Assembly: GCA_028694105.1 (NCBI GenBank)
Contig: JAQUUC010000001.1
Span: 1-64,000 of the forward strand
DNA: 64,000 nucleotides
Origin: Hespellia sp.
GTDB taxonomy: Bacteria > Bacillota > Clostridia > Lachnospirales > Lachnospiraceae
Direction of reading: 5' to 3'
Made by a program: the position numbers and the translations under genes. Under the pieces are notes generated by a model. The model was not told the origin of the DNA, did no database searches, and saw only the letters and a list, made by a program, of their open reading frames with translations. Position 1 is the first letter of the stretch. Every line of letters begins with the position of its first letter. This document shows, one piece after another, positions 9,491 to 55,864 of this stretch.

Positions 9491-10114
9491 CTATTCTATG
9501 ATTGTCTTTCCGTCTGCCACTTTGACTCTGTCATTTGCGATCAGATCAATCGCCTGTGGCAGAATCTTCCATTCCGCCTGTTCCATCACGCGTCTCTGCA
9601 ATACCTCCGGTGTGTCACCGTCCTCCACATATACAGCCTTCTGCAGAATGATCGGACCGGTATCCGTTCCTTCATCCACAAAATGAACGGTTGCACCCAC
9701 TACCTTGACACCGCGCTCTAACGCTTTCTCATGAACCTTCAGCCCATAAAACCCTTTTCCGCAGAAAGACGGAATCAGAGAAGGATGAATATTAATCATT
9801 CGATTGCGGTATTTTGCTATCATCACCTCCGGAATCACTACAAGAAATCCGGCAAGGACGATCAGATCCGGCTGCAGCTCATCTACTGCCGCAAGAAATG
9901 ACTCATTGAATAAATCGCGGCTTTCAAAGTCCTTCGGAGAAATGCAGAGGCTTGAAATGCCTGCTTTCGCTGCGCGTTCCAGAGCATAGGCATTTTTGTT
10001 GTTGCTGATAACACCCACAATCTCGGTGTTTGTAATATTTCCTTTATGTACTTCATCTATAATAGCCTGTAAATTCGTTCCGCCTCCGGAAACCAGAACC
10101 ACAACTCTTAGCAT
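9491..10114 (-). CDS. purN: Phosphoribosylglycinamide formyltransferase
   Basis: PurN transfers a formyl group from 10-formyl-THF to GAR, the third step of purine synthesis. The 207-residue protein has the folate-enzyme fold with the N-terminal VSGGGTNLQAII loop, the catalytic INIHPSLIPSF segment (Asn, His) and the later ATVHFVDEGTDTGPII containing the catalytic Asp. The length is normal. Its start overlaps the end of purM by 7 nt, indicating translational coupling. Confidence 0.97.
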   Translation of the reverse strand: MLRVVVLVSGGGTNLQAIIDEVHKGNITNTEIVGVISNNKNAYALERAAKAGISSLCISPKDFESRDLFNESFLAAVDELQPDLIVLAGFLVVIPEVMIAKYRNRMINIHPSLIPSFCGKGFYGLKVHEKALERGVKVVGATVHFVDEGTDTGPIILQKAVYVEDGDTPEVLQRRVMEQAEWKILPQAIDLIANDRVKVADGKTIIE

Positions 10115-11133
10115 AAAGTAACTCCTTTGTCTCCGCTTTCGATATGTCCGACAACATAAGGCTCTTCGCCTGCCGCTTTGATTGCTGCCATTGTCTTATC
10201 AACATCAGCTTCCTCTACAGCGAGCACCATGCCAAGTCCCATGTTAAATGTATTGTACATTGCCTGTTCTTCGATATCGCCATCTTCTGCAAGCATCTTG
10301 AAAATCGGAGGAATCGGATAGCTGTCCTTCTTTACAACTGCATGTGTGCCTTCTTTTAACATACGGGGAATATTCTCATAGAAACCACCGCCCGTGATAT
10401 GGCTGCACGCAACCACGCGGACACCTGCATCTTTGATGCTGCGGAGAGCTTTTACATAAATCTTTGTCGGAGCAAGCAGTGCTTCGCCAAGTGTTGTTCC
10501 AAGACTGTCATAATAAGTCTCCAACGCTTCTTTTTTCATGTTGAATACTTTTCTTACAAGAGAAAATCCATTGCTATGTACACCGGAGGAAGCCATACCA
10601 ATCAGTACATTTCCTGCTTTTAATTCTTTTCCAGTGATTAAATCTTTCTCATCGACAACACCAACTGCGAAGCCCGCAAGATCATATTCCTCTATTGGAT
10701 AAAATCCCGGCATCTCTGCAGTCTCTCCGCCAATCAGTGCCGCGTTTGACTGCTTGCAGCCTTCTGCCACACCACTTACGATCGTCGCAATTTTTTCAGG
10801 CTCATTCTTGCCACATGCGATATAGTCGAGGAAGAATAAAGGTTCTCCGCCTGCACAGGCAATATCATTCACACACATTGCCACACAGTCGATACCGATT
10901 GTGTCATGCTTATCCAGTGTGAATGCTAATTTCAATTTCGTTCCGACTCCGTCTGTACCTGATACCAGTGTTGGTTTTTCCATATCCTTGAACTTCTCCA
11001 TTGAGAATGCTCCCGAAAAACCGCCAATGTTCGTCAGTACTTCTGATCTCATTGTCTCCTGTACGTGTTTTTTCATCAGCTCCACTGATTTGTAACCAGC
11101 CTCAATATCTACACCTGCGTTTTTGTAATCCAT
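10108..11133 (-). CDS. purM: Phosphoribosylformylglycinamidine cyclo-ligase
   Basis: PurM closes the imidazole ring to give AIR. The 341-residue protein begins with the typical MDYKNAGVDIEAGYK and shows SGTDGVGTKLKLA, the CVAMCVNDIACAGGEPLFFLDY signature in part, and GGETAEMPGFY, all conserved in the PurM/PurL superfamily. It is followed by purN with a 7-nt overlap and lies 63 nt after purE in the same operon. Confidence 0.97.
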   Translation of the reverse strand: MDYKNAGVDIEAGYKSVELMKKHVQETMRSEVLTNIGGFSGAFSMEKFKDMEKPTLVSGTDGVGTKLKLAFTLDKHDTIGIDCVAMCVNDIACAGGEPLFFLDYIACGKNEPEKIATIVSGVAEGCKQSNAALIGGETAEMPGFYPIEEYDLAGFAVGVVDEKDLITGKELKAGNVLIGMASSGVHSNGFSLVRKVFNMKKEALETYYDSLGTTLGEALLAPTKIYVKALRSIKDAGVRVVACSHITGGGFYENIPRMLKEGTHAVVKKDSYPIPPIFKMLAEDGDIEEQAMYNTFNMGLGMVLAVEEADVDKTMAAIKAAGEEPYVVGHIESGDKGVTLC

Positions 11134-11196
11134 AATCTTCTCCTATTCTTCTTCCCTGCTCTCTGGCAACGGCGTTTTTATTCTTTTGTTTTCTTA

Positions 11197-11709
11197 TTAC
11201 ATCTCTCTGATATATTCAGCGTGTCCGATTTTATCTAATTTCTCGGCTTTTCCCTGTACAGTTTCTTTCATTTCCTTCGAATGTGCTTTTAATCGCTCCA
11301 GTAATTCCGGATCAGACATTGCCAGCATTCTTGCTGCCAGAATCGCCGCATTCATACCGCCGTCAATTGCAACGGTGGCAACCGGAATTCCCGGTGGCAT
11401 CTGCACGATTGAATACAGTGCGTCTGTGCCCTCTAAATTTTTGCCTGACATTGGGATTCCAATGACCGGCATCGGGAAGATTGCTGCGCACATTCCCGGA
11501 AGATGTGCTGCCATTCCAGCCCCTGCAATGATCACTTTAAATCCTTTTGCCTCCGCACTTTTCGCATAATCGAAAAATACATCCGGCTCACGATGTGCCG
11601 AGATAATGGTCATCTCATAATCAATTCCCAACTTTTCCAGCATGTCTGCTGCTTTCCCCATGACCTTAAGGTCTGAGTCACTCCCCATAACAATTCCAAC
11701 TTTTGCCAT
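11197..11709 (-). CDS. purE: N5-carboxyaminoimidazole ribonucleotide mutase
   Basis: PurE class I converts N5-CAIR to CAIR. The 170-residue protein opens with VGIVMGSDSDLKVM and contains the active-site segments SAHREPD, AGAGMAAHLPGM and GIPMSG. It starts 22 nt after the M29 aminopeptidase gene, with no room for its own promoter, so the purine genes depend on transcription entering from the pyrimidine genes upstream. No purK is in the window; no purine riboswitch precedes it. Confidence 0.97.
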   Translation of the reverse strand: MAKVGIVMGSDSDLKVMGKAADMLEKLGIDYEMTIISAHREPDVFFDYAKSAEAKGFKVIIAGAGMAAHLPGMCAAIFPMPVIGIPMSGKNLEGTDALYSIVQMPPGIPVATVAIDGGMNAAILAARMLAMSDPELLERLKAHSKEMKETVQGKAEKLDKIGHAEYIREM

Positions 11710-43257: not shown

Positions 43258-44280
43258 TTATTCTGTATAAAGATCAAATAACGTTTGTCCTACCTGATTT
43301 CGAATTTCTTCATATAAATCAGCGGACTCTTCTCTCATCTCCTCCTTTAAGTCGTCGGAGAGGGTCACGATTTCTGTCCCTGATTCTTCTATGCTCTCAA
43401 GCCGGTCTGTCACACGTTCATCCGCCTGCTCTCTGGCATATGTTACGGCAGTCTCGCAGGCCTGTTCTAAAATTTCCTGCTGCTTTTGCGTGATGTCCTT
43501 AAAAAGATCTGCATTCATAATCAGTGTAATATAATGTGGTAAATGATTTGTTTCGATTACATAGTTCTGCTGTTCATAGAGCTTTCCCGAAACGATGACC
43601 TCTACCGGATTTTCTTCCGCATCAATTGTTTTCTGCTGAAGTCCGATATACACCTCACTAAATGCCATCGGTGTCGGATTCGCTCCAAGCGTCTGCCAGA
43701 AGGCAAGATGATTTGCATTTTCCATGGTTCGTATTTTGAGCCCCGTAAAATCCGAGATTTGTTCAATTTTCTTATTTGCCGTCATCACACGGAAACCCTG
43801 ATCCGCAATTCCCAGAAGGTGATACCCACCGTCTTCATAGACCGTTTCAATCTGCTCATAAAAAAGCTCATCATCCACGGCATCCCGCGCCTGCTCAATC
43901 GTATCAAAGACACACGGTGTATCAAATACCGCCGTTTGGGACATGTAGCTCACCTGCGGCGCTGTGTTCTGCACCACAAATGGAATGTCTCCTTCCTTAC
44001 AGCAGTCAAGCAGCTCTGAGTCATTGCCGATGGTTGAATTTGGATAGATTTCAATCTGCATTTCCCCATCACTTAAGCGGTCTGTTTCCTCCGCAAATTT
44101 CTCAGCAAACACCTGTGTTACCGTATCCTCCGGGCTGCTTGTCCCCAGCTGCCAGACATAAGTTTTCTCTTTCGTTTCCGTCTCTTTCTGCACGCATCCG
44201 GTCAGGGCAAGCAGCATAGTTCCTGCAAGCAGTGCCGCCCAAATACGCTGGTTCCATTTTCTATTCCTTCTTTTTCTCAT
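43258..44280 (-). CDS. dctP: TRAP transporter substrate-binding protein
   Basis: A 340-residue lipoprotein: signal peptide with lipobox LLALTGC, then a DctP-type binding domain (TYVWQLGTSSPEDTVTQVFAEKFAE, GLKIRTMENANHLAFWQTLGANPTPMAFSEVYIGLQQKTIDAEENP in parts). The Arg in LKIRTMEN normally holds the carboxylate of the ligand, so an organic or sugar acid is expected. Encoded last, 12 nt after dctM, in the eleven-gene operon; GGAGG precedes the ATG. No terminator follows in the 107 nt before the rhamnosidase promoter. Confidence 0.95.
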   Translation of the reverse strand: MRKRRNRKWNQRIWAALLAGTMLLALTGCVQKETETKEKTYVWQLGTSSPEDTVTQVFAEKFAEETDRLSDGEMQIEIYPNSTIGNDSELLDCCKEGDIPFVVQNTAPQVSYMSQTAVFDTPCVFDTIEQARDAVDDELFYEQIETVYEDGGYHLLGIADQGFRVMTANKKIEQISDFTGLKIRTMENANHLAFWQTLGANPTPMAFSEVYIGLQQKTIDAEENPVEVIVSGKLYEQQNYVIETNHLPHYITLIMNADLFKDITQKQQEILEQACETAVTYAREQADERVTDRLESIEESGTEIVTLSDDLKEEMREESADLYEEIRNQVGQTLFDLYTE

Positions 44281-44292
44281 GTCATTTCCTCC

Positions 44293-45579
44293 TTACAGTG
44301 TCAGACTGATTGCCGGAATAAATGTAATCATAAGCAATGCAACCAGAAATAGAAGAATCATCGGTAACGCTTTCTTTGCAATATCCATAACCGGAATTTC
44401 TGCAAGTGAGCTCGCAACAAACAGATTGACCCCGATTGGCGGTGTCACAAAACCAATTGCCAGATTCACGACCATTACAATACCAAACTGAATCGGGTCC
44501 ATTCCGATTTCCACGATAATCGGAAGAAGAATCGGTGTTGTAATCAGGATGGCAGGACTGGTATCCATGACCATTCCAACAAACAGCAGGAACAGATTGA
44601 TTACAAGTAAAATAACAATCGGCTGTGTAAATGTATTCAAAATCCATCCACTGACTCCCTGCGGTACTTTTAAAAGTGTCAGCGTTCTCGAAAATGCAGT
44701 CGAGGAGATCAGAATAAACATCAGCGGTCCATATGTATGTACTGCCTCCGAACAAATAGCAAGGATATCTTTGACTTTTAACGATTTGTAAATCACAATA
44801 CTGACAAAGAGTGCATAGAACACGGAAATAACCGCTGCTTCCGTAGGTGATGCAATTCCGCCGTAGATACAGCCCAAAATGATAACCGGTGTCATCAGTG
44901 CCCAGATTCCCTCTTTCATCAGTTTGAGAAAACCACGTTCTCGCAGCATCCCAACAACCGCATCAATCTGTTCTTTGTCTTCTCCATATTTCCAGCAATG
45001 ATACTGTGCGTATCCCATGAGAAGAACTGCAATTAATATGCCCGGTATAATCCCGGCTTTGAACAGATTTCCGACGGATTCTCCGGAAGCCATAGAATAT
45101 AGAATAAACGGAATACTCGGCGGTATAATAACTCCAAGGCCTCCCGCCACGGCTACGATTGCTGTCGAAAACTTTTTGTCATATCCAAGATTTGACAAAA
45201 TGGGAATCGTCATGCTGCCCACCGCCGCTACCGTTGCAGGCGCGGAACCTGAGATTGCTCCGTAAAACAGGCAGGTAATAATAACTGCGCATGGAACGCC
45301 GGCTCTGAATTTCCCAAAAAAATAGGTGAAGATGTCAAAGAGCTTTCGCGACACGCCGCCTCTTGCCATAATAATCCCGGAGAGAACGAACATCGGGATC
45401 GCCAGCAATGGAAAGCTGTCGAGTCCACTCAGCATGGAGCGCACGATATAATATACGCTGACCGGAAATTCCTGATCCAGTATTCCCGGCAGAGTTGACA
45501 CAATTCCAAGTGAGCTGCCGATCGGGATCGATATCACAAGAAGGACTAGAAATGCTATAAACACAATTGCTATCTGCAT
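44293..45579 (-). CDS. dctM: TRAP transporter large permease
   Basis: A 428-residue membrane protein of the DctM family with about 12 helices, including SIPIGSSLGIVSTLPG, MFVLSGIIMARGGVSRKLFD, ISGSAPATVAAVGSMTIP, ALLMGYAQYHCWKYG and VMDTSPAILITTPILLPI with GFVTPPIGVNLFVAS near the C-terminus. It is the ion-coupled translocating subunit. Overlaps dctQ by 10 nt. Confidence 0.97.
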   Translation of the reverse strand: MQIAIVFIAFLVLLVISIPIGSSLGIVSTLPGILDQEFPVSVYYIVRSMLSGLDSFPLLAIPMFVLSGIIMARGGVSRKLFDIFTYFFGKFRAGVPCAVIITCLFYGAISGSAPATVAAVGSMTIPILSNLGYDKKFSTAIVAVAGGLGVIIPPSIPFILYSMASGESVGNLFKAGIIPGILIAVLLMGYAQYHCWKYGEDKEQIDAVVGMLRERGFLKLMKEGIWALMTPVIILGCIYGGIASPTEAAVISVFYALFVSIVIYKSLKVKDILAICSEAVHTYGPLMFILISSTAFSRTLTLLKVPQGVSGWILNTFTQPIVILLVINLFLLFVGMVMDTSPAILITTPILLPIIVEIGMDPIQFGIVMVVNLAIGFVTPPIGVNLFVASSLAEIPVMDIAKKALPMILLFLVALLMITFIPAISLTL

Positions 45580-46061
45580 GATGTATCCTCCTTTATTTTC
45601 CGAATCTCCAAAAACATTTTCTGTATCAGCCGGATTTCAGCAAGCAGAAATCCGACGAGTGGTGCCAATTGAAGTATCCACATTGGCATCTGCATTGCCG
45701 TGCTGACCTGACCGCTTGCAAACACAATGACAAGACTTCTTCCTGCCGTCGGTATCAGATACAGAAAGAAAAGAAATTCAATTGCATAGTCAATGAAAAA
45801 TACGATTGATTTTGCTTTTGGTTTCATTTTTTCTGTCAGTTGTTCCAGCCGTATCGCAATAGATCTTTCGACTGCAAAGCTGATACTCAGAAATCCACTC
45901 CACACAAACAGATAACGTGTGAGTTCTTCCGTCCATGACATAGAAGCATTAAAAATATATCTCATACAGATTTGAAAACCCATCACCAGCGTCATGATAA
46001 TCAGGAAAAAAATCATCATCGCTTCTTCAAAGTTCTCATTGATCCACTTTATTTTTTTCAT
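45570..46061 (-). CDS. dctQ: TRAP transporter small permease
   Basis: A 163-residue protein with four helices and the DctQ motif MSWTEELTRYLFVWSGFLS. GGAGG 5 nt upstream places the start at MKKIKWINEN; the ORF-track start lies inside the MFS gene. It joins DctM to form the membrane part of the TRAP transporter. Confidence 0.95.
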   Translation of the reverse strand: MKKIKWINENFEEAMMIFFLIIMTLVMGFQICMRYIFNASMSWTEELTRYLFVWSGFLSISFAVERSIAIRLEQLTEKMKPKAKSIVFFIDYAIEFLFFLYLIPTAGRSLVIVFASGQVSTAMQMPMWILQLAPLVGFLLAEIRLIQKMFLEIRKIKEDTSCR

Positions 46062-46071
46062 GGGCACCTCC

Positions 46072-47286
46072 CTACTCGGCTGCACAATTCACCATATGAC
46101 TGTATCTTAGATTTACAAACAGTGCCAGAATCACACCTGCAACTGTAATTACAATATTCAGAAGAATCACGGCTCCCGCACCGTTCGAGGCCCCCAGAGT
46201 ACCCGCAAGTGTCAGTATCGTATAATTTGACAGACTCGAAGCAATCATGATAATGCTGGTGATCGTTCCCTTGATCTGTGGGAACAGGTCATTTACCGTT
46301 GCCGTTGCAAGCTGAAGGACTCCTCCTGCTGCGAAATAACCGATTACAAACGCTCCGACCAGACAGACTGCCGGCGTGCGAATCAAATAAACCAGCGTCA
46401 GCATTACAACGGATACCATCGGATAAATAAGCAGGAAGCGCACTTCCTTGATTTTATTGACCAGAATCGCCGTCACAAAGATTGCAACAATGGTTCCTGC
46501 AGAATAATAAGTCTGCATCATACCTGGATCCGACATCTTTGCCACTTCTTTGCCAAAGGTCTGTGCACAGTTGAGCCAAAGCTGAAATGTTGCCGTGCAG
46601 GTAAACCCGATCAGTATGAGTGCGATGCTTTCCGGCGAAAATTTTGCACTTTTCAGACTTTGAAGAAACGAAGGCTGTGCCCCGCCTTGCTGTTTCTTTT
46701 GTGGCAGTGGAATCTGAGTCACCATAATTCCAATGACAAAGATTGCTCCCGCCGCTGCATACATCAGCACGTTATAAGAAAGGTTATTTGCTGCAATTGC
46801 GCCTAACATAAACGGAATCAGAAGCTGTGCCCCGGATAGAAATAATTTGGTCAGCATCGTTGCAAGACCGGATCTGGGTTCAAGTAATTCAACACACGCT
46901 GGAATCACACCTGTATCCAGAAATGAATTTGCTGCACCGCCGAAAATAGCTGCAATGTATGCCGTCTGCATATTCGGTGACCATGCAATTCCGACAAAAA
47001 ACAAGATATAAAGACCAATTCCAATTAACGAGGAGCATCTTCTCCCCATCCGGTCTGATATCGGACCGGAAAACGGAAGCGAGATTAATCGTCCCAGTCC
47101 CAGTGCTGCCGCAACCATTGTGACCTGTTCCAGTCCTGAGCCCCATCGTCCGGACAGAAATTCCTTGATTGCCTGCTGCCCAAGAAGGGACGCACCGATT
47201 CCATGAATAAAATAGTTCAGATATAGTACAAGTGCACTCCCATAATAAGACTGTCTGCTTCTCTCATTCTTCTTTTTTTCACTCAT
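46072..47286 (-). CDS. Major facilitator superfamily transporter
   Basis: A 404-residue protein with 12 predicted helices and the MFS loop motif GPISDRMGRRCSS between helices 2 and 3. The start is MSEKKKNERS at 47286 with GGAG 6 nt upstream, overlapping the aroD stop by 8 nt. Placed between a 3-dehydroquinate dehydratase and a TRAP system it is most likely an uptake or exchange carrier for the same acid (shikimate and quinate carriers exist in this superfamily), but the substrate is inferred from context. Confidence 0.92.
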   Translation of the reverse strand: MSEKKKNERSRQSYYGSALVLYLNYFIHGIGASLLGQQAIKEFLSGRWGSGLEQVTMVAAALGLGRLISLPFSGPISDRMGRRCSSLIGIGLYILFFVGIAWSPNMQTAYIAAIFGGAANSFLDTGVIPACVELLEPRSGLATMLTKLFLSGAQLLIPFMLGAIAANNLSYNVLMYAAAGAIFVIGIMVTQIPLPQKKQQGGAQPSFLQSLKSAKFSPESIALILIGFTCTATFQLWLNCAQTFGKEVAKMSDPGMMQTYYSAGTIVAIFVTAILVNKIKEVRFLLIYPMVSVVMLTLVYLIRTPAVCLVGAFVIGYFAAGGVLQLATATVNDLFPQIKGTITSIIMIASSLSNYTILTLAGTLGASNGAGAVILLNIVITVAGVILALFVNLRYSHMVNCAAE

Positions 47287-48052
47287 TTTCCTCTCCTTGT
47301 CTTGTATGTAAAATGTCCAGCATAACTTCCACATCCTTCAAATGCATCTGTCCCGGTGCGGAACTTCTGACTGTGCTGCCAAATGTAAGTGCTGAACCAA
47401 AGATTTCGCCGCTCACCCGGCTGATTTTACCCAGATCATTCATTGACATTGTAATCAGTGGTCCGTCTGCATGCACGTTCGCATACTGATTGGTTGCCGA
47501 TAAGAGTGTCAGTACATCCTCTGCGTTGTGCGGCATCACTGCAATTTTCGGAACATCTGCTCCCAGCTCGCGCATCCTGCAAAGGCGCTCCACAATCACC
47601 TGTTCATTTGGTGTGCCCTCAAAATCATGATTGGAAATGACCACGACACAATGGTGTTCATGTGCAAGCTGACTGAGACTCTGACAGACCTCATCTCCCA
47701 TAAATAATTCGATATCAATCATATCCACGACTTCTCTGCGAATCACATACTCATTGATTGCCATATATTCTTCCTGCGTAATGACGTTGTCGCACCCTTC
47801 CGTCCGAAAGGTAAACAGAATGGGAAGCTGCTCCAGTATCTCACGCATATTTTTCGCGATTTGAATGACATCATTCAAATGGTGGACTTCCACAAAATGA
47901 TCCACACGCCACTCTACAAGATCTGCTCCGCCTTCTTTGGCAAGCTTTGCTTCTTTCAGGATTTCCGTTTCTGTTTTTCCCGTGATTGGCACACATATCT
48001 TCGGTTTTCCAGCACCCAGTTCCATCTCTCTTATCATTATCGATTTTCTCAT
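47279..48052 (-). CDS. aroD: 3-dehydroquinate dehydratase, type I
   Basis: A 257-residue TIM-barrel enzyme that dehydrates 3-dehydroquinate to 3-dehydroshikimate through a Schiff base. Seen are KICVPITGKTETEIL, ADLVEWRVDHF, the catalytic His in VISNHDFEGTP and the Schiff-base Lys in VPKIAVMPHN, followed by SGEIFGSALTFGS and SSAPGQM. The length is standard. The ATG overlaps the stop of the flavin oxidoreductase (ATGA). Its place inside a transport and oxidoreductase operon, away from other aro genes, suggests a catabolic rather than biosynthetic role. Confidence 0.95.
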   Translation of the reverse strand: MRKSIMIREMELGAGKPKICVPITGKTETEILKEAKLAKEGGADLVEWRVDHFVEVHHLNDVIQIAKNMREILEQLPILFTFRTEGCDNVITQEEYMAINEYVIRREVVDMIDIELFMGDEVCQSLSQLAHEHHCVVVISNHDFEGTPNEQVIVERLCRMRELGADVPKIAVMPHNAEDVLTLLSATNQYANVHADGPLITMSMNDLGKISRVSGEIFGSALTFGSTVRSSAPGQMHLKDVEVMLDILHTRQGEENE

Positions 48053-50076
48053 GCCGTTCCTCCATACTGGTTATTTGCCAGATATCCATGTTTTTTTAGA
48101 ATGTTCTGTATATTTCTTCCCTCGCTTACACCTTCAATGATGCGGCGGGCACGGACACTGTCTCCTACATTCACTACTTCCACTCTGTCATCGGCAAAGG
48201 CTTCTTCTAATTCCGCTAATACCGGACTTTTTGCTTTCATTCCCAGACAGACAAAGCCATAATCAAAGGTGTATTCTTTCCGGTCTCCGTCCGGAGTCTT
48301 TACGGTGAATCGATCACGTTCCACCTTGGAAAGCGCCGTTTTGGTAAGCTCGGTAACTTTATACTTTTTACTGATTTCTTTCATGCGAAGCTTACTGACC
48401 GGATCTAAATCTTTGCCAATCTGATCCATCATCTCAATGATTGTCACACTTGCTCCGCGCGGTGCAAAGAATTCAACTACATCCAGACCAACTGCGCCTC
48501 CGCCTACCACGATGACCTTTTTCCCCGCCATATCCTGCGGATACTCTGGAATTTTTTGAATCATGCCGAGAATCGAGGATACCTTTCCCTCCTGATTGTC
48601 GATCCATTCTTGTAATCCCTCAATCGGTGGCAGCAGCGGTTTCGACCCTGTTGCGTTCACGATCAGATTCGGCTTCAGGCTTTTTACGAACCGCACCGTT
48701 GCATCCACTTCTGTAAATGCATACAGATTCGGCAGCCGTTTTGCACGCTCCTTCTGGTATGTCACGAAATCACCGATTCTCCACTTGTCCGGAATCTTGC
48801 TGATTTCATTTGCCAGGCCACCCAGCTCTTTTCCCTTCTCAATCAAAAAGGTCTGACATCCTGCCTCTGCCGCTGTGCAGGCAGCTTCCATTCCTGCTGT
48901 GCCGCCTCCGATCACAACCACATTACATGGTTTTACTACCTTCTGTGTTCCTTCCCACTGATTGACACAAGGATTGACCGTACACCGGATTGGTGTATTC
49001 TGTGCAAGTCTGTGCCCTGCACATCCAATGTTGCAGGAAATGCATTTGCGCAGCATCGCTTCTTCTCCAAATTCGACTTTGTTGACCCAGTTCGGATCTG
49101 CGATCAGGCCACGTCCCATTCCAATAAAATCAGCATCTTCGTTTTCCAGAATCTCTTCTGCACGTTTTGGCGAGCGTATATTTCCGGTCGTAATCGTTGG
49201 CTTATGAAATTTATCTCTGACAGCTTTTGACATATAAGAACGCCATCCGTCTTTTAACTGGCAGCTGTCGATCTGATACTGCAGCGAGCTGTTTAATCCC
49301 GCCGACACATCGATCAGATCAATCTCTTCTTCAAAATAAGACAGCAATTCCAGCGTATCCTCCAGCGTATTTCCGCCTTCGACCATTTCGTCCGCACTGA
49401 TTCTGCAGAATACCGGAAAGAATGGTCCTACTTCTTTTCGAACTTCTTCTAAAACCATCTTTGCAAATCTTGCCCTGTTCTCTGCGCTGCCGCCAAATTC
49501 ATCCGTTCTTTTGTTCATGGTAGGTGACAGGAACTGACTGATCAGATATCCGTGGCCTGCATGAATTTCAACCGCGTCAAATCCAGCCGTCTGTGCACGT
49601 TTTGCCGCCTCACCGTATTTTTTTGCGATTGCTGCAATTTCTTCTTTTGTCAGCGGTCGCGGCAGCGATCCGCCCGGCTTTGATGGAAGATCCGATGCTG
49701 ATACCGTCTGCATTCCGATTCTGCTGTCCATCGCTGAAGCTCCCGCATGATTGATCTGAATGGCAATACAGGTTCCATACTGGTGTACTGTCTCACACAG
49801 TTTGTATAATCTCGGAATGTAATTATCATGATCAATTCGAATCTGTGTCGTTCCATTCGAGCCAAGAGGGAAATCCACACATGCATTTTCTACGATGATC
49901 ATACCGACCCCGCCCTGTGCACGCTGCTCGTAATAGTTCATGTGAAGGAAGCTCATCTCTCCATTCTGTTCCCCGTAATTGGTTCCCATCGGAGCCATTG
50001 AAATTCTGTTTTTTACCGTCATACGTCGGATGGTCAACGGTTCAAATAGTTTTGGATATTTCTCGTGTTTCATCAT
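48049..50076 (-). CDS. Old Yellow Enzyme-type NADH:flavin oxidoreductase with FeS and FAD domains (2,4-dienoyl-CoA reductase/BaiCD-like)
   Basis: A 675-residue three-domain reductase. Residues 1-340 form the FMN-binding OYE barrel (EPLTIRRMTVKNRISMAPMG, EIHAGHGYLISQFLSP, NKRTDEFGGSAENRARF). Residues 346-371 supply the 4Fe-4S cysteines (CISCNIGC ... RCTVNPC). From about 386 come FAD and NADH domains (VVVIGGGTAGMEAAC, KKVIVVGGGAVGLDVVEFFA). Enzymes of this class reduce C=C bonds conjugated with a carbonyl (enoyl-CoA, bile-acid enones, flavonoids). Here the next gene is aroD, whose product 3-dehydroshikimate is such an enone. The start is the first ATG, 7 nt after GGAG. Confidence 0.93.
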   Translation of the reverse strand: MMKHEKYPKLFEPLTIRRMTVKNRISMAPMGTNYGEQNGEMSFLHMNYYEQRAQGGVGMIIVENACVDFPLGSNGTTQIRIDHDNYIPRLYKLCETVHQYGTCIAIQINHAGASAMDSRIGMQTVSASDLPSKPGGSLPRPLTKEEIAAIAKKYGEAAKRAQTAGFDAVEIHAGHGYLISQFLSPTMNKRTDEFGGSAENRARFAKMVLEEVRKEVGPFFPVFCRISADEMVEGGNTLEDTLELLSYFEEEIDLIDVSAGLNSSLQYQIDSCQLKDGWRSYMSKAVRDKFHKPTITTGNIRSPKRAEEILENEDADFIGMGRGLIADPNWVNKVEFGEEAMLRKCISCNIGCAGHRLAQNTPIRCTVNPCVNQWEGTQKVVKPCNVVVIGGGTAGMEAACTAAEAGCQTFLIEKGKELGGLANEISKIPDKWRIGDFVTYQKERAKRLPNLYAFTEVDATVRFVKSLKPNLIVNATGSKPLLPPIEGLQEWIDNQEGKVSSILGMIQKIPEYPQDMAGKKVIVVGGGAVGLDVVEFFAPRGASVTIIEMMDQIGKDLDPVSKLRMKEISKKYKVTELTKTALSKVERDRFTVKTPDGDRKEYTFDYGFVCLGMKAKSPVLAELEEAFADDRVEVVNVGDSVRARRIIEGVSEGRNIQNILKKHGYLANNQYGGTA

Positions 50077-50099
50077 CACGTCACTCCTTCCCCTACATT

Positions 50100-50927
50100 C
50101 TACGCGCCCATCTGTTTCTCTTCTTTGGCACCGTAGGAATAGATATTATAATGTTCTAAAAGAGAAAGTCCCTTTCTTATATCTGTCTCGAAATCATCAA
50201 ATGTATTTGCTTCATAGGAAATGTAGCCCTTATAAGAAATCTCTTTCAGTGTTTCAAATAATGTTCCATAATCAAATCCGTCACCCAGCATTGGAACGCG
50301 TCTCTTTGGAAATGGAAGCAGCGGATTATCTACATGTACATGTTTGATAAAATCTGCATACTCGATAATATCTGAATAATCATGTCCGCCTGCGATGAAC
50401 CATCTGAAATCAAGCAGCGTCTTTAAATTTTTACATCCCAGCTTCTTTGCATATGCATAAGCCTCCGGAATACTTAAGACAGAATTACAGATTGCTTCTG
50501 CCAGTGGTTCCATCATAATCGTGATGTTATATTCCTGCGCGATTTCACAGAGTGTCACGATCAGCTGATCGTTTTTCTTTCTTGCCGTTTCTTTTTCCAC
50601 GCCGTCCGGAAGACTTCTTGTTTTCCCATTTCCATATACAAAATATCTTCCGCCCATCTGTGCTGTTCTCTCTACTGCTTTTCTCAGATAGTCGCGGTAA
50701 AACGGAAAATCAAAGCTGTCATCTGCGATTACCACATCCAGTGGAAGTGGATTATCAAATACTTCACTCGCAAGACCGCTATCTTGAAGCATTTGTTTTG
50801 CCTTGCGAAACTCAAAGTCATCAAACGACATGATTTCTTTAATATGAAGTTCGATTGCGTCATAACCTGCTGCTGCAATTGCATCAGCTTCCTTAACAAA
50901 GCCAAAATGGCTGGTTTTCATCTTCAT
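50100..50927 (-). CDS. AP-endonuclease-2-type TIM-barrel isomerase/epimerase/dehydratase
   Basis: A 275-residue xylose-isomerase-like TIM barrel. The four usual metal ligands can be seen: Glu in IMMEPLAEAI, Asp in KTLLDFRWFIAGG, His in KHVHVDNPLLP and Glu in YISYEANTFDD. The superfamily includes sugar epimerases (IolO, hydroxypyruvate isomerase, tagatose epimerases), inosose dehydratase and 3-dehydroshikimate dehydratase, so the fold alone does not decide the reaction. In this operon either an epimerase after ring opening or a dehydroshikimate dehydratase would make sense. It lies 23 nt before the flavin oxidoreductase and 13 nt after the dehydrogenase. Confidence 0.88.
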   Translation of the reverse strand: MKMKTSHFGFVKEADAIAAAGYDAIELHIKEIMSFDDFEFRKAKQMLQDSGLASEVFDNPLPLDVVIADDSFDFPFYRDYLRKAVERTAQMGGRYFVYGNGKTRSLPDGVEKETARKKNDQLIVTLCEIAQEYNITIMMEPLAEAICNSVLSIPEAYAYAKKLGCKNLKTLLDFRWFIAGGHDYSDIIEYADFIKHVHVDNPLLPFPKRRVPMLGDGFDYGTLFETLKEISYKGYISYEANTFDDFETDIRKGLSLLEHYNIYSYGAKEEKQMGA

Positions 50928-50940
50928 ACGTCCACCTCTT

Positions 50941-51984
50941 TTATTCGTTTACTAAAATGACTTTTACTTCCTTGGAATGTCCGGATACAAGATCTTCGAA
51001 TTTCTCCTGTACTTCATTCATCGGCGCAACCGTCGTAATCAGTTTCTTCAGATCAATTTTTCCTTCTTCGATCATTTTTGGAATCTCATATAACTCATCC
51101 ACATAACAGTAGCTTCCCTTTAATTTCATCTCGTGTGCAACTGCATATTTATATTCGAATCCGTCCATATGTTCCGTTGCCATTCCGATCATCGCAACCT
51201 CTCCGCCATTTTTTACCATCTTCATACTGGTATTTAAGCTGATTGCAATTCCAACGCAGTCTGCGCCTGCATCTGCCCCTTTTCCATTTGTAATTTCCAT
51301 CACACGTGCAACCGGGTCTTCATTTTTACTGTTGATGGTATAAGAAGCACCACATTCTTTTGCTGTTTCAAGTCTCTGGTCATTCAAATCAATACTGATG
51401 ACATCTTTTGCACCAAGATATTTCAAGCACTGCAGTGCCAGCAGTCCGATTGGTCCGGCTCCGAAGACCGTAACGACCTTATCTTTTACATCGCTGAGCA
51501 TCTTGACACCGCGCAGTGCGACAGAAGTTGGCTCGAACATCGAACCTTCCTCAAAGCTGATCTGATCTGAGATTGGAATCAGTTTGTCTGCAGGTACGAC
51601 TACATAATCTGCCATTGCTCCATCATATCCGCCTGCCGGCATCGTTGTTCCGGGAATGAATCTCTCTTCACAAAGGTTTGGGAGACCCGCTTCACAGTCT
51701 GGACATTTCTCGCACTGAATATTCGGATATACCACAACTCTGCCGCCAACAGGAACGGATGGATTTGTCACGCCCTCTCCGTACTGGTCTACCACTCCGG
51801 AAAATTCATGTCCCATCACAAGCGGTGCGACACGCATTGCACTCGTTCCCTTGAAGCCGCCTGTATCTGAACCACAGATGGAAACTGCTTTTACCCGGAT
51901 TCTCACCTCATTTTTTCCGGGCTGTGGAATCTCTCTCTCCTGTTCCTCGATTGTAAATGGTGCTACATAACAATATGCTTTCAT
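50941..51984 (-). CDS. Zinc-dependent medium-chain alcohol/polyol dehydrogenase (second copy)
   Basis: A 347-residue MDR dehydrogenase: VSICGSDTGGFKG with the catalytic zinc Cys, GHEFSGVVDQYGEGV, structural-zinc cysteines CEKCPDCEAGLPNLC, and the NAD-binding loop GAGPIGLLALQCL. It oxidises a secondary alcohol to a ketone on a polyol or cyclitol-like substrate. AGGAG 8 nt upstream sets the start at MKAYCYVAPF. It is a diverged paralogue of the preceding gene (same zinc and Rossmann motifs), which suggests two oxidations of one substrate at different carbons. Confidence 0.95.
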   Translation of the reverse strand: MKAYCYVAPFTIEEQEREIPQPGKNEVRIRVKAVSICGSDTGGFKGTSAMRVAPLVMGHEFSGVVDQYGEGVTNPSVPVGGRVVVYPNIQCEKCPDCEAGLPNLCEERFIPGTTMPAGGYDGAMADYVVVPADKLIPISDQISFEEGSMFEPTSVALRGVKMLSDVKDKVVTVFGAGPIGLLALQCLKYLGAKDVISIDLNDQRLETAKECGASYTINSKNEDPVARVMEITNGKGADAGADCVGIAISLNTSMKMVKNGGEVAMIGMATEHMDGFEYKYAVAHEMKLKGSYCYVDELYEIPKMIEEGKIDLKKLITTVAPMNEVQEKFEDLVSGHSKEVKVILVNE

Positions 51985-52003
51985 AATATGATCTCCTCTC
52001 GTT

Positions 52004-53044
52004 TTATAATTCAATCTGCACTTTGATTTCCTCATTGTCAGGGGTATTTAATACATCAAAGGCTGCTTTTCCGTTTTCCAGTGTGTAGGTAGACGTAATC
52101 AGATCTTCAACGACCAGCTTTTCATCCGCCAGCATCTGAGCTGCTTCTGTCATTTCTGTTGTAAACATGTAGCTTCCCACAAATTTCAGTCCTCTGCCAA
52201 CGATTTCCATTGGATCGATTTCCACGTTTTTGTGAGTAAGAGCCACCAGTACGCTGGTTCCACCGTTTTTCACCATGTCAAACGACTGGTTGATCAGAAA
52301 TTCTCCCGCTGCATTAATCACGCGGTCAGCGCCGTAACCATCGGTCAGTTTCTTGACTGCGAGAACCGCATCTTCCTGTTTGGAATTGATGATATAATCT
52401 GCTCCGCACTCTTTCGCTTTTGCGAGACGTTTATCAATGATATCTGACACAATGACTTTTTCAATTCCAAGTGCTTTTAAGAATTTTACAATCAAAAGTC
52501 CGATTGGTCCGGCACCGAGTACGACGGTAGATTTCTCATCCCGGCTCATCTCCTTTTTTGCACATGCGAGTGTTACGCCGCATGGTTCTAACAGTGCTGC
52601 CGCTTCATATGATACATTGTCTGCCACCGGAACGACCATCCAGTCCGGAACAGTCACATACTCTCTCATCGCGCCATCTGTCTGTGTTCCGCCAATCGCG
52701 GTTCCCATACTCTTACGATTGCCGCAGAGGTTTCCCTCTCCTCTTTTGCAGAAATAACAGTCATTGCAGAGCACCATCGGATTTACGGTAACTCTCTGTC
52801 CCGCCTTCAGCGTTGTCACACCTTCGCCAACCTGTGTGATATCTCCCGAGAACTCATGTCCCAGCACCAGCGGAGGGGCAAAACGATCGGAAGCAAAACG
52901 ATACGCCCCCAGATCCGAACCACAGATCGATACTTTTTTTATCTTGATCTGCACTTCTCCTTTTTGTGGAATCGGAATCTGTCTTGTCTCTACTTCCAGC
53001 TTTCCGGGTCCCTGATATACTAAAGCTTTCATTGTATCCGCCAT
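52004..53044 (-). CDS. Zinc-dependent medium-chain alcohol/polyol dehydrogenase (first copy)
   Basis: A 346-residue MDR dehydrogenase with VSICGSDLGAYRF, GHEFSGDITQVGEGV, four structural-zinc cysteines (CNDCYFCKRGEGNLC), and GAGPIGLLIVKFL. The start is ATG at 53044 (MADTMKALVYQ), 9 nt after AAAGGAG; the 55-residue extension in the ORF track overlaps a hairpin-rich gap and the creatininase stop and is not coding. NAD is the likely acceptor because an acidic residue (VSDI) ends the second Rossmann strand. Confidence 0.95.
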   Translation of the reverse strand: MADTMKALVYQGPGKLEVETRQIPIPQKGEVQIKIKKVSICGSDLGAYRFASDRFAPPLVLGHEFSGDITQVGEGVTTLKAGQRVTVNPMVLCNDCYFCKRGEGNLCGNRKSMGTAIGGTQTDGAMREYVTVPDWMVVPVADNVSYEAAALLEPCGVTLACAKKEMSRDEKSTVVLGAGPIGLLIVKFLKALGIEKVIVSDIIDKRLAKAKECGADYIINSKQEDAVLAVKKLTDGYGADRVINAAGEFLINQSFDMVKNGGTSVLVALTHKNVEIDPMEIVGRGLKFVGSYMFTTEMTEAAQMLADEKLVVEDLITSTYTLENGKAAFDVLNTPDNEEIKVQIEL

Positions 53045-53086
53045 CTTTTTCTTCTCCTTTTTTTCGAACTCCCACACAGCCCTCTC

Positions 53087-53170
53087 TAAGTTCCCGGAAT
53101 CTTCCGGCAATTTAGAGAATGCTGTATGAGCATTGATTTTTGTGCGGTCTCCTATAGTAAGAGACCGCAC
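53087..53170 (-). other. Intercistronic hairpins in the catabolic operon
   Basis: The 148-nt gap between the creatininase-like and dehydrogenase genes holds a perfect 10-bp stem, GTGCGGTCTC and GAGACCGCAC with a 9-nt loop (53142-53170), and a second structure in which TCTCTAA pairs with TTAGAGA around CCGGAAGATTCCGG (53087-53120 approx.). Neither is followed by a U-run. They may stabilise or process the mRNA and set different levels for upstream and downstream enzymes. Confidence 0.65.
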
Positions 53171-53192
53171 ATCTGTGTCCTGCAAATGTATC

Positions 53193-54155
53193 TTAGCAAG
53201 GCCATGCAATTGTATAGATATGTTTTCCGCCTTTTGTAGGTCCTTTTAAAAGCTTTTCGATTTCTTCCGGATCTCTCTGGCTCATGTATTTTGCATCCGG
53301 CAATACGCCAACCGGGCATGCTTCCAAAATGTCATGGTGTAACTGAACAAGATAATCACATACTTTTTCAATACAGTCTGTCGCTTTCTTCGGATCTGCC
53401 TCTGTTGCATGTCCAAGAACGCCCTGAGGTGCTGTCACGCACTCAATACCTGCATTACCGACCACACAGTGTCCAGGGATTGGATTTCCATAAATGTCTC
53501 CGCCACGGTCCACATGTCCTGCCGGAAGAATTCCATGTACATCTGTATCTTCTGCATGTTCCATATCACAGTACTCTGGGAATAATGCAAGCGAGATACT
53601 CTGTTCCGCTTCACATGCATGCTGGAATGGTCTTGTAAATGGACCACCATGTTCTTTGTCCATCAATGTCTGTGCCATAACACGTGGGAAATCTACGAAA
53701 TAGATCATAGCCGGAACCTGATATTTCTTGCCCCATTCCTGAATTGCTACCGGCAGAGAATACTCCTGTCCATGCATACTGATAAAAATAATCTTACGGA
53801 AGCCTGTGTTCCAGAATCCAGTGATAAGTGCTCTTAAATAAGCACAAAATACATCATCTGGAAGTGGAATCGTACATGGCTGACCGATGTGATGGAATGG
53901 ATGTGAGCCATACCACACTGGTTCTGCTACTGTACAGCCAACCTTCTCTGCTACCATCTCTGCCACACGCGATACAATAAATGTATCCTCTCCGATTGGA
54001 CCTGAATTACCGTGATTTTCTGTAGATCCTACCGGGATGATGATAATATCATCCTTTTCCAGTCTCTCTTCTACATCTTTCTTTGTCATTGTCTGATAGT
54101 ACATTTTCTTTGCAGATTCCATCTGCCCTTCGTTTGGAAAATTCCAATTACCCAT
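53193..54155 (-). CDS. Creatininase-family hydrolase
   Basis: A 320-residue protein of the creatininase fold: IIIPVGSTENHGNSGPIGEDTF holds the metal Glu/His/Asp set, ISMHGQEYSLPV corresponds to the NxHGGN region, and HACEAEQSISLALFPE to HAGExETS. The family includes creatinine amidohydrolase, MftE-type peptidases and, in Thermotoga, the IolN hydrolase that opens a 1,3-diketo cyclitol ring. Gly-Gly-Asn in the second motif is changed to Gly-Gln-Glu, so the substrate is probably not creatinine. Beside two polyol dehydrogenases and a TIM-barrel enzyme, a diketone-cleaving role is the best guess. Confidence 0.85.
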   Translation of the reverse strand: MGNWNFPNEGQMESAKKMYYQTMTKKDVEERLEKDDIIIIPVGSTENHGNSGPIGEDTFIVSRVAEMVAEKVGCTVAEPVWYGSHPFHHIGQPCTIPLPDDVFCAYLRALITGFWNTGFRKIIFISMHGQEYSLPVAIQEWGKKYQVPAMIYFVDFPRVMAQTLMDKEHGGPFTRPFQHACEAEQSISLALFPEYCDMEHAEDTDVHGILPAGHVDRGGDIYGNPIPGHCVVGNAGIECVTAPQGVLGHATEADPKKATDCIEKVCDYLVQLHHDILEACPVGVLPDAKYMSQRDPEEIEKLLKGPTKGGKHIYTIAWPC

Positions 54156-54235: not shown

Positions 54236-55144
54236 TTACTTTGCAGATAATGCCCGAATCCTCTGCTGATAGCTGTCAATGCCTTCTCCCTTTACAAGCT
54301 TTACGATTTTCGCTCCGGCATCCATGATTTTTTCGAAATCCATTCCGGTCTCTATCCCCATCGAGTCGAGCATAAACAGCACATCCTCTGTGGAAATATT
54401 ACCGGTTGCTCCCTTTATGTAAGGACATCCGCCAAGTCCTGCCAGCGACGTATCAATTCGGGTGATGCCTGCCTCCATTGCCGCTACCACATTTGCAAGT
54501 TCCATGCCTCTCGTGTTGTGCATGTGAAGCATCCACTCCATATCCGGAAATGCGTCCCGAAGTGCCATTGTTCTTTCATAAACCATCTTCGGCGTTCCCA
54601 GCCCTGCTGAATCAGAAAGCGAGACCTGTGTTGCACCTGCATCCTGAAATACTTTCACGATTTCTTTGATAAAATCAAATGGTATAACGCCTTCCCACTG
54701 TGATGCGAATGGAAGTGAGATTGAACCGGCAAATCCCATATGATTGTCTCTCGCAACCTGCCCGGACTCTGCAAATGTCTTCATCGCCTCCAGCGGAGAA
54801 CATCCTGCACCTGCTTTGTTGTGCTCCATGCTCGCGGACACATTTAACTTGATTTTCTGGCAGCCACATGCGGCTGCGCGCCTTACATCATCCGGAAAAT
54901 ATACAAGACCTCTGTATTCCACGCCCTCTTTTTTATGGAGCTTTTCAAACACCTGATCTGTGTCCTTCATCTTGTACATGGTTTCATAGGTTGAGAACGC
55001 TCCGACCTCTACCGACTGACATCCGGCATCTACAACCTCCTCGATGATTCTTACTTTTTCCTCCACCGGATAAATCTCCGGTGCCGTTTGGAATCCGTCT
55101 CTTGTGACTACTTCACAGAGCGTCACCTTTTTTGGTAAATTCAT
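54236..55144 (-). CDS. HMG-CoA lyase-like aldolase
   Basis: A 302-residue TIM-barrel lyase of the DRE-TIM group. CEVVTRDGFQ carries the Arg-Asp pair, LHMHNTRGMELANVVAAMEAG the metal-binding HxHN, and GLGGCPYIKGATGNISTEDV in parts the catalytic Cys loop specific to HMG-CoA lyase. It should split a 3-hydroxy-3-substituted acid or thioester into two smaller acids. No CoA transferase or CoA ligase lies in the operon, so the natural substrate may be a free acid or a CoA ester made elsewhere. First structural gene of the operon, 87 nt after the regulator. Confidence 0.93.
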   Translation of the reverse strand: MNLPKKVTLCEVVTRDGFQTAPEIYPVEEKVRIIEEVVDAGCQSVEVGAFSTYETMYKMKDTDQVFEKLHKKEGVEYRGLVYFPDDVRRAAACGCQKIKLNVSASMEHNKAGAGCSPLEAMKTFAESGQVARDNHMGFAGSISLPFASQWEGVIPFDFIKEIVKVFQDAGATQVSLSDSAGLGTPKMVYERTMALRDAFPDMEWMLHMHNTRGMELANVVAAMEAGITRIDTSLAGLGGCPYIKGATGNISTEDVLFMLDSMGIETGMDFEKIMDAGAKIVKLVKGEGIDSYQQRIRALSAK

Positions 55145-55231: not shown

Positions 55232-55864
55232 TTACACGCCTATCTGAACATAACCTTCCTTCATGCGTTCAATCGCTGCATCCAAGTGTTCCTGCATGCA
55301 CGACAGTGCTTCCTCATACTTCTGCGCTTCTACAAGATCAAGGAATCTTTCGTGCTCCTCTATCGGAATACTGCTATGCTTTTTCACGATTTTCTTAGAG
55401 CCCATCCGGTATTGATTTCGAATACTCTGATAAAAATCAGAAAGCTGCCTGTTCTGTAATAAATCAACCAGATAAATATGAAATTGTGCATCCACCTCGG
55501 TATATCGAGAAATATCACCCTGCTCCATGGCCTTCTTCTGTCTGATAATGTAGGCCCGAAGAATCATGATATCGTCTGTGCCAATCTTGTCAATGATTTG
55601 GGGCAGCACATACTGTTCTACACATTCACGGCTTTGATAAATATTCTGAATTGCTTTCATGTCGATCTTGACCACCGAGAAACCCACATTCGGAATCACT
55701 TCCAACACACCTTCGCTCTGCAGTTCTACCAGTGCTTCACGAACCGGTGTATAGCTCAGTCCCAATTCACCTGCACTCTTACGGACACTGAGAATCGTTC
55801 CCGGTTCTGCATCCATCACCTGCTGCTTCAGTGCTTTATATGCCTGTTTTTTTAATGTCGTCAT
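55232..55864 (-). CDS. GntR family regulator, FadR/FCD type
   Basis: A 210-residue regulator: winged helix-turn-helix (YKALKQQVMDAEPGTILSVRKSAGELGLSYTPVREALVELQSEG in parts) and a helical FCD effector domain (ECVEQYVLPQIIDKIG, EVDAQFHIYLVDLLQN, EEHERFLDLVEAQKYEEAL) whose Asp and His residues usually bind a metal that contacts an acid ligand. FCD regulators commonly respond to organic or sugar acids, in line with the TRAP and dehydrogenase genes downstream. It is read in the same direction as the operon and probably controls it and itself through TGATGCATCA. The ribosome site (GGAG 14 nt upstream) is loosely spaced. Confidence 0.92.
   Translation of the reverse strand: MTTLKKQAYKALKQQVMDAEPGTILSVRKSAGELGLSYTPVREALVELQSEGVLEVIPNVGFSVVKIDMKAIQNIYQSRECVEQYVLPQIIDKIGTDDIMILRAYIIRQKKAMEQGDISRYTEVDAQFHIYLVDLLQNRQLSDFYQSIRNQYRMGSKKIVKKHSSIPIEEHERFLDLVEAQKYEEALSCMQEHLDAAIERMKEGYVQIGV

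Follow-up and report, generated by a model that had tools for sequence, protein, structure and literature searches.

A twelve-gene operon around an IolN-family hydrolase

The window analysed here, a stretch of 64,000 nucleotides of Hespellia sp. (Lachnospiraceae; contig JAQUUC010000001.1, positions 1 to 64,000), carries on its minus strand an operon of 12 genes, extending from a GntR-type regulator gene (55864) down to position 43258, which probably serves the import and fermentation of quinate and/or shikimate, or of the corresponding dehydro compounds, through hydrolytic opening of the ring. A preliminary description of the narrower interval 50100-54155 had recognised a creatininase-like hydrolase, two medium-chain dehydrogenases/reductases (MDR) and an AP-endonuclease-2-type barrel side by side. 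All four open reading frames (ORFs) were present as placed, all on the minus strand. Five other Lachnospiraceae assemblies (L043-L047) kept the gene order, and a planctomycete (L085) kept that of the core, so that this arrangement is not due to chance. The window's hydrolase was 99% identical to that of Hespellia stercorisuis DSM 15480, the nearest named genome. Gene families, gene order and its conservation are thus established by the analysis.

The regulator (55232..55864; Pfam FCD 2.7e-18, GntR 9.5e-12) occupies the same place in L043-L046 and L085. It is followed by an aldolase of the DRE-TIM type resembling 3-hydroxy-3-methylglutaryl (HMG)-CoA lyase (hereafter HMGL; 54236..55144; Pfam HMGL-like 8.8e-45), the hydrolase (53193..54155; Pfam creatininase family, E 5.8e-49), two zinc-type alcohol dehydrogenases with ADH_N/ADH_zinc_N domains, MDR-a (52004..53044; Pfam E 9e-29; preferred start codon ATG 53044) and MDR-b (50941..51984; Pfam E 7e-29; ATG 51984), and a xylose-isomerase-like TIM barrel of family AP_endonuc_2 (50100..50927; Pfam 3.8e-28). 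Downstream lie a flavoenzyme related to BaiCD and old yellow enzyme (OYE; 48049..50079; 452 bits on the BaiCD model, under its cut-off of 825), a type I 3-dehydroquinate dehydratase (AroD; 47279..48052), a transporter of the major facilitator superfamily (MFS; 46072..47286; Pfam MFS_1 4.5e-29) and the three components of a TRAP transporter, namely the small subunit DctQ (45570..46085), conserved with the cluster, the large subunit DctM (44293..45579) and the solute-binding protein DctP (43258..44280; NCBIfam dctP 192 bits, cut-off 175). From MDR-a through DctP, genes either overlapped, as OYE and aroD do by 4 bases, or were separated by 12-20 bases; wider gaps were found at the front, between GntR and HMGL (87 bases), HMGL and hydrolase (80) and hydrolase and MDR-a (about 150). 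Comparison of the TRAP protein with solved structures returned general matches, to sialate-type and other proteins, which were uninformative on the ligand.

The hydrolase reached 532.8 bits on the NCBIfam IolN model NF041098 (cut-off 245), while it stayed under the cut-offs for creatininase (82.7 against 235, TIGR04448) and MftE (49.2 against 172, TIGR03964). In a tree with 25 creatininase-like outgroup rows, all IolN-type rows were set apart (SH-aLRT 97) and the window hydrolase stood well inside them. Judged from its sequence, this protein is thus a member of the IolN family; creatininase or MftE identity, whose clustering the preliminary description had named as what would refute its reading, was ruled out by model scores and tree alike. 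The metal ligands E46, H48, D57, H128 and E184 were invariant in the alignment, and the structure prediction proposed earlier gave an AlphaFold model (pLDDT 85.5) whose best PDB matches were creatininases. The MHGQEY motif, described earlier as changed, proved not to be peculiar to this protein: the loop HGQ[ED]Y, HGQEY in the window protein, is common to the window's clade and to inositol-type IolN, and it is the creatininase-like paralogues among the outgroups that mostly display HGGN instead.

The preliminary description had also drawn a parallel with the IolG-IolM-IolN-IolO inositol pathway of Thermotoga maritima, known from Rodionova 2013 as reported in two later papers (PMC5931981, PMC12632266). 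This parallel stood for the hydrolase but not for its partners. MDR-a and MDR-b scored 183.7 and 179.6 bits on the IolM model NF041097 (cut-off 450), and the TIM barrel 46.4 bits on the IolO model NF041099 (cut-off 300), whereas two tested IolM homologues from inositol-type relatives obtained 510.9 and 524.9 bits; tested IolO homologues of these relatives, with 181-294 bits, were likewise under the cut-off. At the sequence level the MDRs and the TIM barrel are therefore counterparts of IolM and IolO at superfamily rank only, and epimerisation of 5-keto-gluconate is not a likely role for the barrel. No IolG-type (Gfo/Idh) dehydrogenase was found among the operon genes, as the preliminary description had stated; 15 Gfo/Idh matches occurred elsewhere in the genome. 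At least five Gfo/Idh matches and at least five xylose-isomerase-like TIM barrels were densely clustered on contig C82 (about 38000-65000), perhaps a locus for keto-sugar or C-glycoside degradation.

The TIM barrel carries an E-D-H-E metal set (E140, D174, H196, E246). Its AlphaFold model (pLDDT 94.5) was nearest to ketose 3-epimerases (TM 0.77-0.79), the 3-dehydroshikimate dehydratase AsbF coming at rank 38 (TM 0.69), and the model search gave no sequence match to QuiC.

Two groups of IolN loci with different neighbours

A survey of 84,980 species genomes yielded 68 IolN loci, which divided in two. Twenty-four belonged to groups that kept IolM/IolO-type partners, with sugar ABC transporters in 11 of them, and appear from their sequences to be inositol-type; loci of this kind with IolM above cut-off served as reference for inositol IolN, in place of the T. 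maritima IolN sequence. The other 44 formed, with the window, a separate clade (SH-aLRT 100, stem 0.49) with representatives in at least Bacillota, Spirochaetota, Planctomycetota, Chloroflexota, Bacteroidota and Atribacterota. Here TRAP genes dominated (DctM in 30 of 44 loci), and loci carried either an aldolase for 4-carboxy-4-hydroxy-2-oxoadipate (CHA) with two oxidoreductases, or HMGL. This division is an established result. Model NF041098 does not register it: tested members of the window clade (L043-L086) scored 431-546 bits, level with inositol-type IolN, and are probably mislabelled in public annotations as 3-dehydro-scyllo-inosose hydrolase. Two IolN copies per locus were observed in L100 and L102 (5743-7848), adjacent in the latter, where one copy was strongly diverged.

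The strongest clue to the substrate was provided by the CHA aldolase of the relatives. An RraA-type aldolase was present in 24 window-clade loci, and all nine that were tested exceeded the NCBIfam CHA aldolase cut-off (190-227 against 179). It was usually accompanied by an Ldh_2 dehydrogenase (23 loci), an aldehyde:ferredoxin oxidoreductase (AOR; 22, some loci having an aldehyde dehydrogenase) and a cupin (26). Locus L056 moreover displayed downstream a gene set of the biotin-dependent decarboxylase type, assigned by eye.

In five Lachnospiraceae assemblies and the planctomycete L085, HMGL was found in place of this aldolase set. Since none of these loci contained RraA, Ldh_2 or AOR, and none of these proteins was found anywhere in the window's genome (99% complete), an absence that is itself established, HMGL seems to have taken over the aldol step. 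Alignment with human and Pseudomonas HMG-CoA lyases revealed intact TRDG, HMHNT and GGCPYxKGATGN motifs, and the score on the NCBIfam subfamily PRK05692 (232.5) was slightly under the cut-off (246). The window HMGL and its L085 homologue formed one clade against other HMGLs, in a small tree with long branches; a search of 399 genomes of the phylum for further such loci retrieved, beyond the window's own, distant HMGLs only. Beside HMGL, between IolN and MDR-a, L085 possesses a dihydroxyacetone-kinase gene (9505-11256) split into two ORFs, the one comprising Dak1 and the start of Dak2 and the other a short downstream ORF, as expected from a frameshift or an assembly error.

The operon AroD comfortably passed the equivalog model TIGR01093 (236.3 against 139.3). 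Its closest solved structure was 3js3, a 3-dehydroquinate dehydratase, with which the SNHD and PKIAV motifs bearing the Schiff-base Lys and His were aligned. Genes for such dehydratases, whether of type I (AroD) or of type II (AroQ, which is unrelated), adjoined IolN in 16 of the 44 window-clade loci and in none of the 24 inositol-type loci (Fisher p 5.6e-4, on rows that are related and not independent). In all, 19 were seen against 0.24 expected from an assumed density of 1.3 genes per 3.5 Mb. Tandem AroQ pairs next to IolN in spirochaetes and an in-operon AroD in Lachnospiraceae are not what chance biosynthetic neighbours look like. Tandem AroQ pairs were located in L071 (5683-7489), L079 (11591-13376) and L082 (3599-5311), and AroQ also in L081 (3099-4451) and L070 (2591-4078); in the TIM-barrel paralogue that follows these genes, two of the four metal ligands are lost, with S or A instead of D174 and P or S instead of E246.

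A second locus of the window's genome, on contig C69 (L012, 6780-15592), comprises two AroE-type shikimate/quinate dehydrogenases, MFS, AroD, TRAP DctQMP and LysR. Its MFS-AroD-DctQ-DctM-DctP block is a paralogue of that in the window, at 48-75% identity (MFS 59%, DctQ 48%, DctM 75%, DctP 62%). The earlier suggestion of a related ring-opening module acting on a different cyclic acid was thus supported, by IolN membership as well as by the AroD, TRAP and CHA aldolase context.

A candidate route for quinate and shikimate

From these data we infer substrate, reaction order and products as follows. The acid would be taken up by the TRAP and MFS transporters. MDR-a and MDR-b, in either order, would oxidise the hydroxyls flanking C4 and convert quinate via 3-dehydroquinate to 3,5-didehydroquinate, a 2-hydroxy-1,3-diketone resembling the natural IolN substrate, which the IolN homologue is predicted to hydrolyse to HOOC-CH2-C(OH)(COOH)-CH2-CO-CH2OH (C7H10O7). 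Because this acid has the skeleton of HMG around its tertiary alcohol, a retro-aldol cleavage of the HMG-lyase type into oxaloacetate and hydroxyacetone, carried out by HMGL, would ensue. AroD may join shikimate and 3-dehydroshikimate to dehydroquinate; hydration would precede the second oxidation, which would take place at the quinate level, since a diketone at the shikimate level would aromatise to gallate. Enzymatic oxidation of 3-dehydroshikimate to gallate has been reported (PMC7752791).

The TIM barrel would isomerise R-CO-CH2OH to R-CHOH-CHO, acting on hydroxyacetone to give lactaldehyde in the window and probably on the whole C7 ketol in relatives; hydroxypyruvate isomerase, from the same Pfam family, is a precedent for ketol isomerisation. 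In relatives, the resulting 2-hydroxyaldehyde would be converted by AOR to the 2-hydroxyacid and by Ldh_2 to the 2-oxoacid, which would be CHA (C7H8O8), to be split by CHA aldolase into pyruvate and oxaloacetate. The ring-opened acid would be two oxidations short of CHA, and conversion of its CH2OH to COOH would give CHA exactly. Both the ring opening and the formation of CHA are chemistry that we infer by reasoning. The dihydroxyacetone kinase of L085 is consistent with a C3 ketol product. The OYE-like enzyme is probably an electron sink; that it reduces the enone of 3-dehydroshikimate for this purpose is a guess. We tentatively suggest that a new anaerobic pathway may thus exist, in which IolN-type hydrolysis of 3,5-didehydroquinate is followed by CHA aldolase in many phyla, or by a CoA-independent split of the HMG-lyase type to oxaloacetate and hydroxyacetone in gut Lachnospiraceae.

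Several observations weigh against this proposal. HMGL enzymes usually act on CoA thioesters, and neither a CoA ligase nor a CoA transferase was found among the operon genes. The L085 kinase could also point to dihydroxyacetone as the released ketol, in place of hydroxyacetone. In L084, AroQ adjoins a prephenate-dehydrogenase-like (TyrA-like) gene, and some AroQ genes flanking IolN may be biosynthetic. Likewise, one or both AroD proteins of the window's genome, that of the operon included, may also serve biosynthesis, because these two proteins are the sole dehydroquinate dehydratases there, AroQ being absent, and a single AroB is present. For the TIM barrel and the OYE-like enzyme, finally, the assigned roles are weakly constrained.

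The proposed route can be placed among known systems. With the Thermotoga pathway it shares the hydrolase family and the metal site and, as proposed, two successive ring oxidations, after which a 2-hydroxy-1,3-diketone is hydrolysed to leave an acid ending in CO-CH2OH; the window's operon differs by its AroD, HMGL, OYE and TRAP genes, its lack of IolG, its scores below the IolM and IolO cut-offs and its separate IolN clade. The aldolase of the relatives and the conversion of the predicted C7 intermediate into CHA recall the end of protocatechuate 4,5-cleavage and gallate degradation (CHA aldolase LigK, of RraA type), but CHA would here be formed anaerobically by ring hydrolysis, without a dioxygenase, and the window itself has HMGL instead. 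HMG-CoA lyase (HMGCL, a DRE-TIM metallolyase) is alike in family, catalytic motifs and the substrate skeleton around the cleaved bond, although a free hydroxyketone acid, and not a CoA thioester, would be the substrate here. Dehydroquinate and its dehydratase are shared with the classical QuiA/QuiB/QuiC catabolism of quinate and shikimate via protocatechuate, from which the proposed route differs in involving neither aromatisation nor an oxygenase.

Other explanations of the operon were considered. It could represent an inositol pathway of the Thermotoga type whose partner enzymes have diverged: the MDRs would replace IolG and IolM, the TIM barrel would be the IolO epimerase and the ring-opened sugar acid would then be cleaved. 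The score on an IolN model that fails to separate the two clades would agree with this, as would the L085 kinase, given that retro-aldol cleavage of 5-ketogluconate would yield dihydroxyacetone. However, the IolM and IolO cut-offs, which inositol-type loci reach or approach, were missed, IolG is lacking in the cluster, and AroD or AroQ, TRAP and CHA aldolase take the place of sugar ABC transporters; a true inositol pathway is thus disfavoured and appears quite unlikely. The same hydrolytic chemistry might instead be applied to another ring, such as a cyclitol carboxylate or a hydroaromatic acid (reduced gallate or a deoxy-inositol, for example), in which case AroD would act on an analogue. For the retro-aldol and CHA steps to work, a ring needs just a tertiary carbinol acid with CH2 next to it, and the ligand is not defined by the transporters. 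As AroD is well above its equivalog cut-off and quinate is a simple natural acid that matches every gene, we regard this possibility as rather unlikely.

An aromatising route, in which AroD would produce 3-dehydroshikimate and the TIM barrel would be a 3-dehydroshikimate dehydratase leading to protocatechuate, with the hydrolase serving another purpose, is suggested by the joint occurrence of type I AroD and an AP_endonuc_2 barrel and by the presence of AsbF among the fold matches. The closer fold of the ketose 3-epimerases and the missing QuiC match argue otherwise, and the co-conservation of IolN, HMGL and two MDRs would be left unexplained, which makes it very unlikely. The operon could also combine two modules, one built on a cyclitol hydrolase and another, made up of AroD, OYE and transport genes, that reduces or salvages intermediates of the shikimate pathway. 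A boundary between the TIM barrel and OYE genes does exist in Robinsoniella, whose OYE gene lies on the opposite strand, and the AroD-MFS-TRAP block is mobile, standing alone on C69. Yet the tight spacing from MDR-a to DctP suggests a single transcript and dehydroquinate dehydratases of both non-homologous types adjoin this IolN clade in several phyla, so that two mixed modules seem improbable.

Implications for the IolN family and for gut anaerobes

Plant food is rich in shikimate and in quinate, which comes from the chlorogenic acid of fruit and coffee. Anaerobes are able to ferment both without an aromatic-ring intermediate, and fermenters that degrade hydroaromatic acids are known; a paper by Brune et al. 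from 2002, listed among the references of PMC11966751, reportedly concerns, by its title, Propionivibrio limicola. No description of such a route, and no genes assigned to it, emerged from searches of the open literature on IolN, on anaerobic quinate pathways and on CHA arising from quinate. If the proposed route is true, it would provide testable genes for quinate and shikimate ring opening in cultured gut bacteria and would explain an IolN clade spread over several phyla. It would also correct a database label, since NCBI's IolN model at present labels every member of the clade an inositol enzyme.

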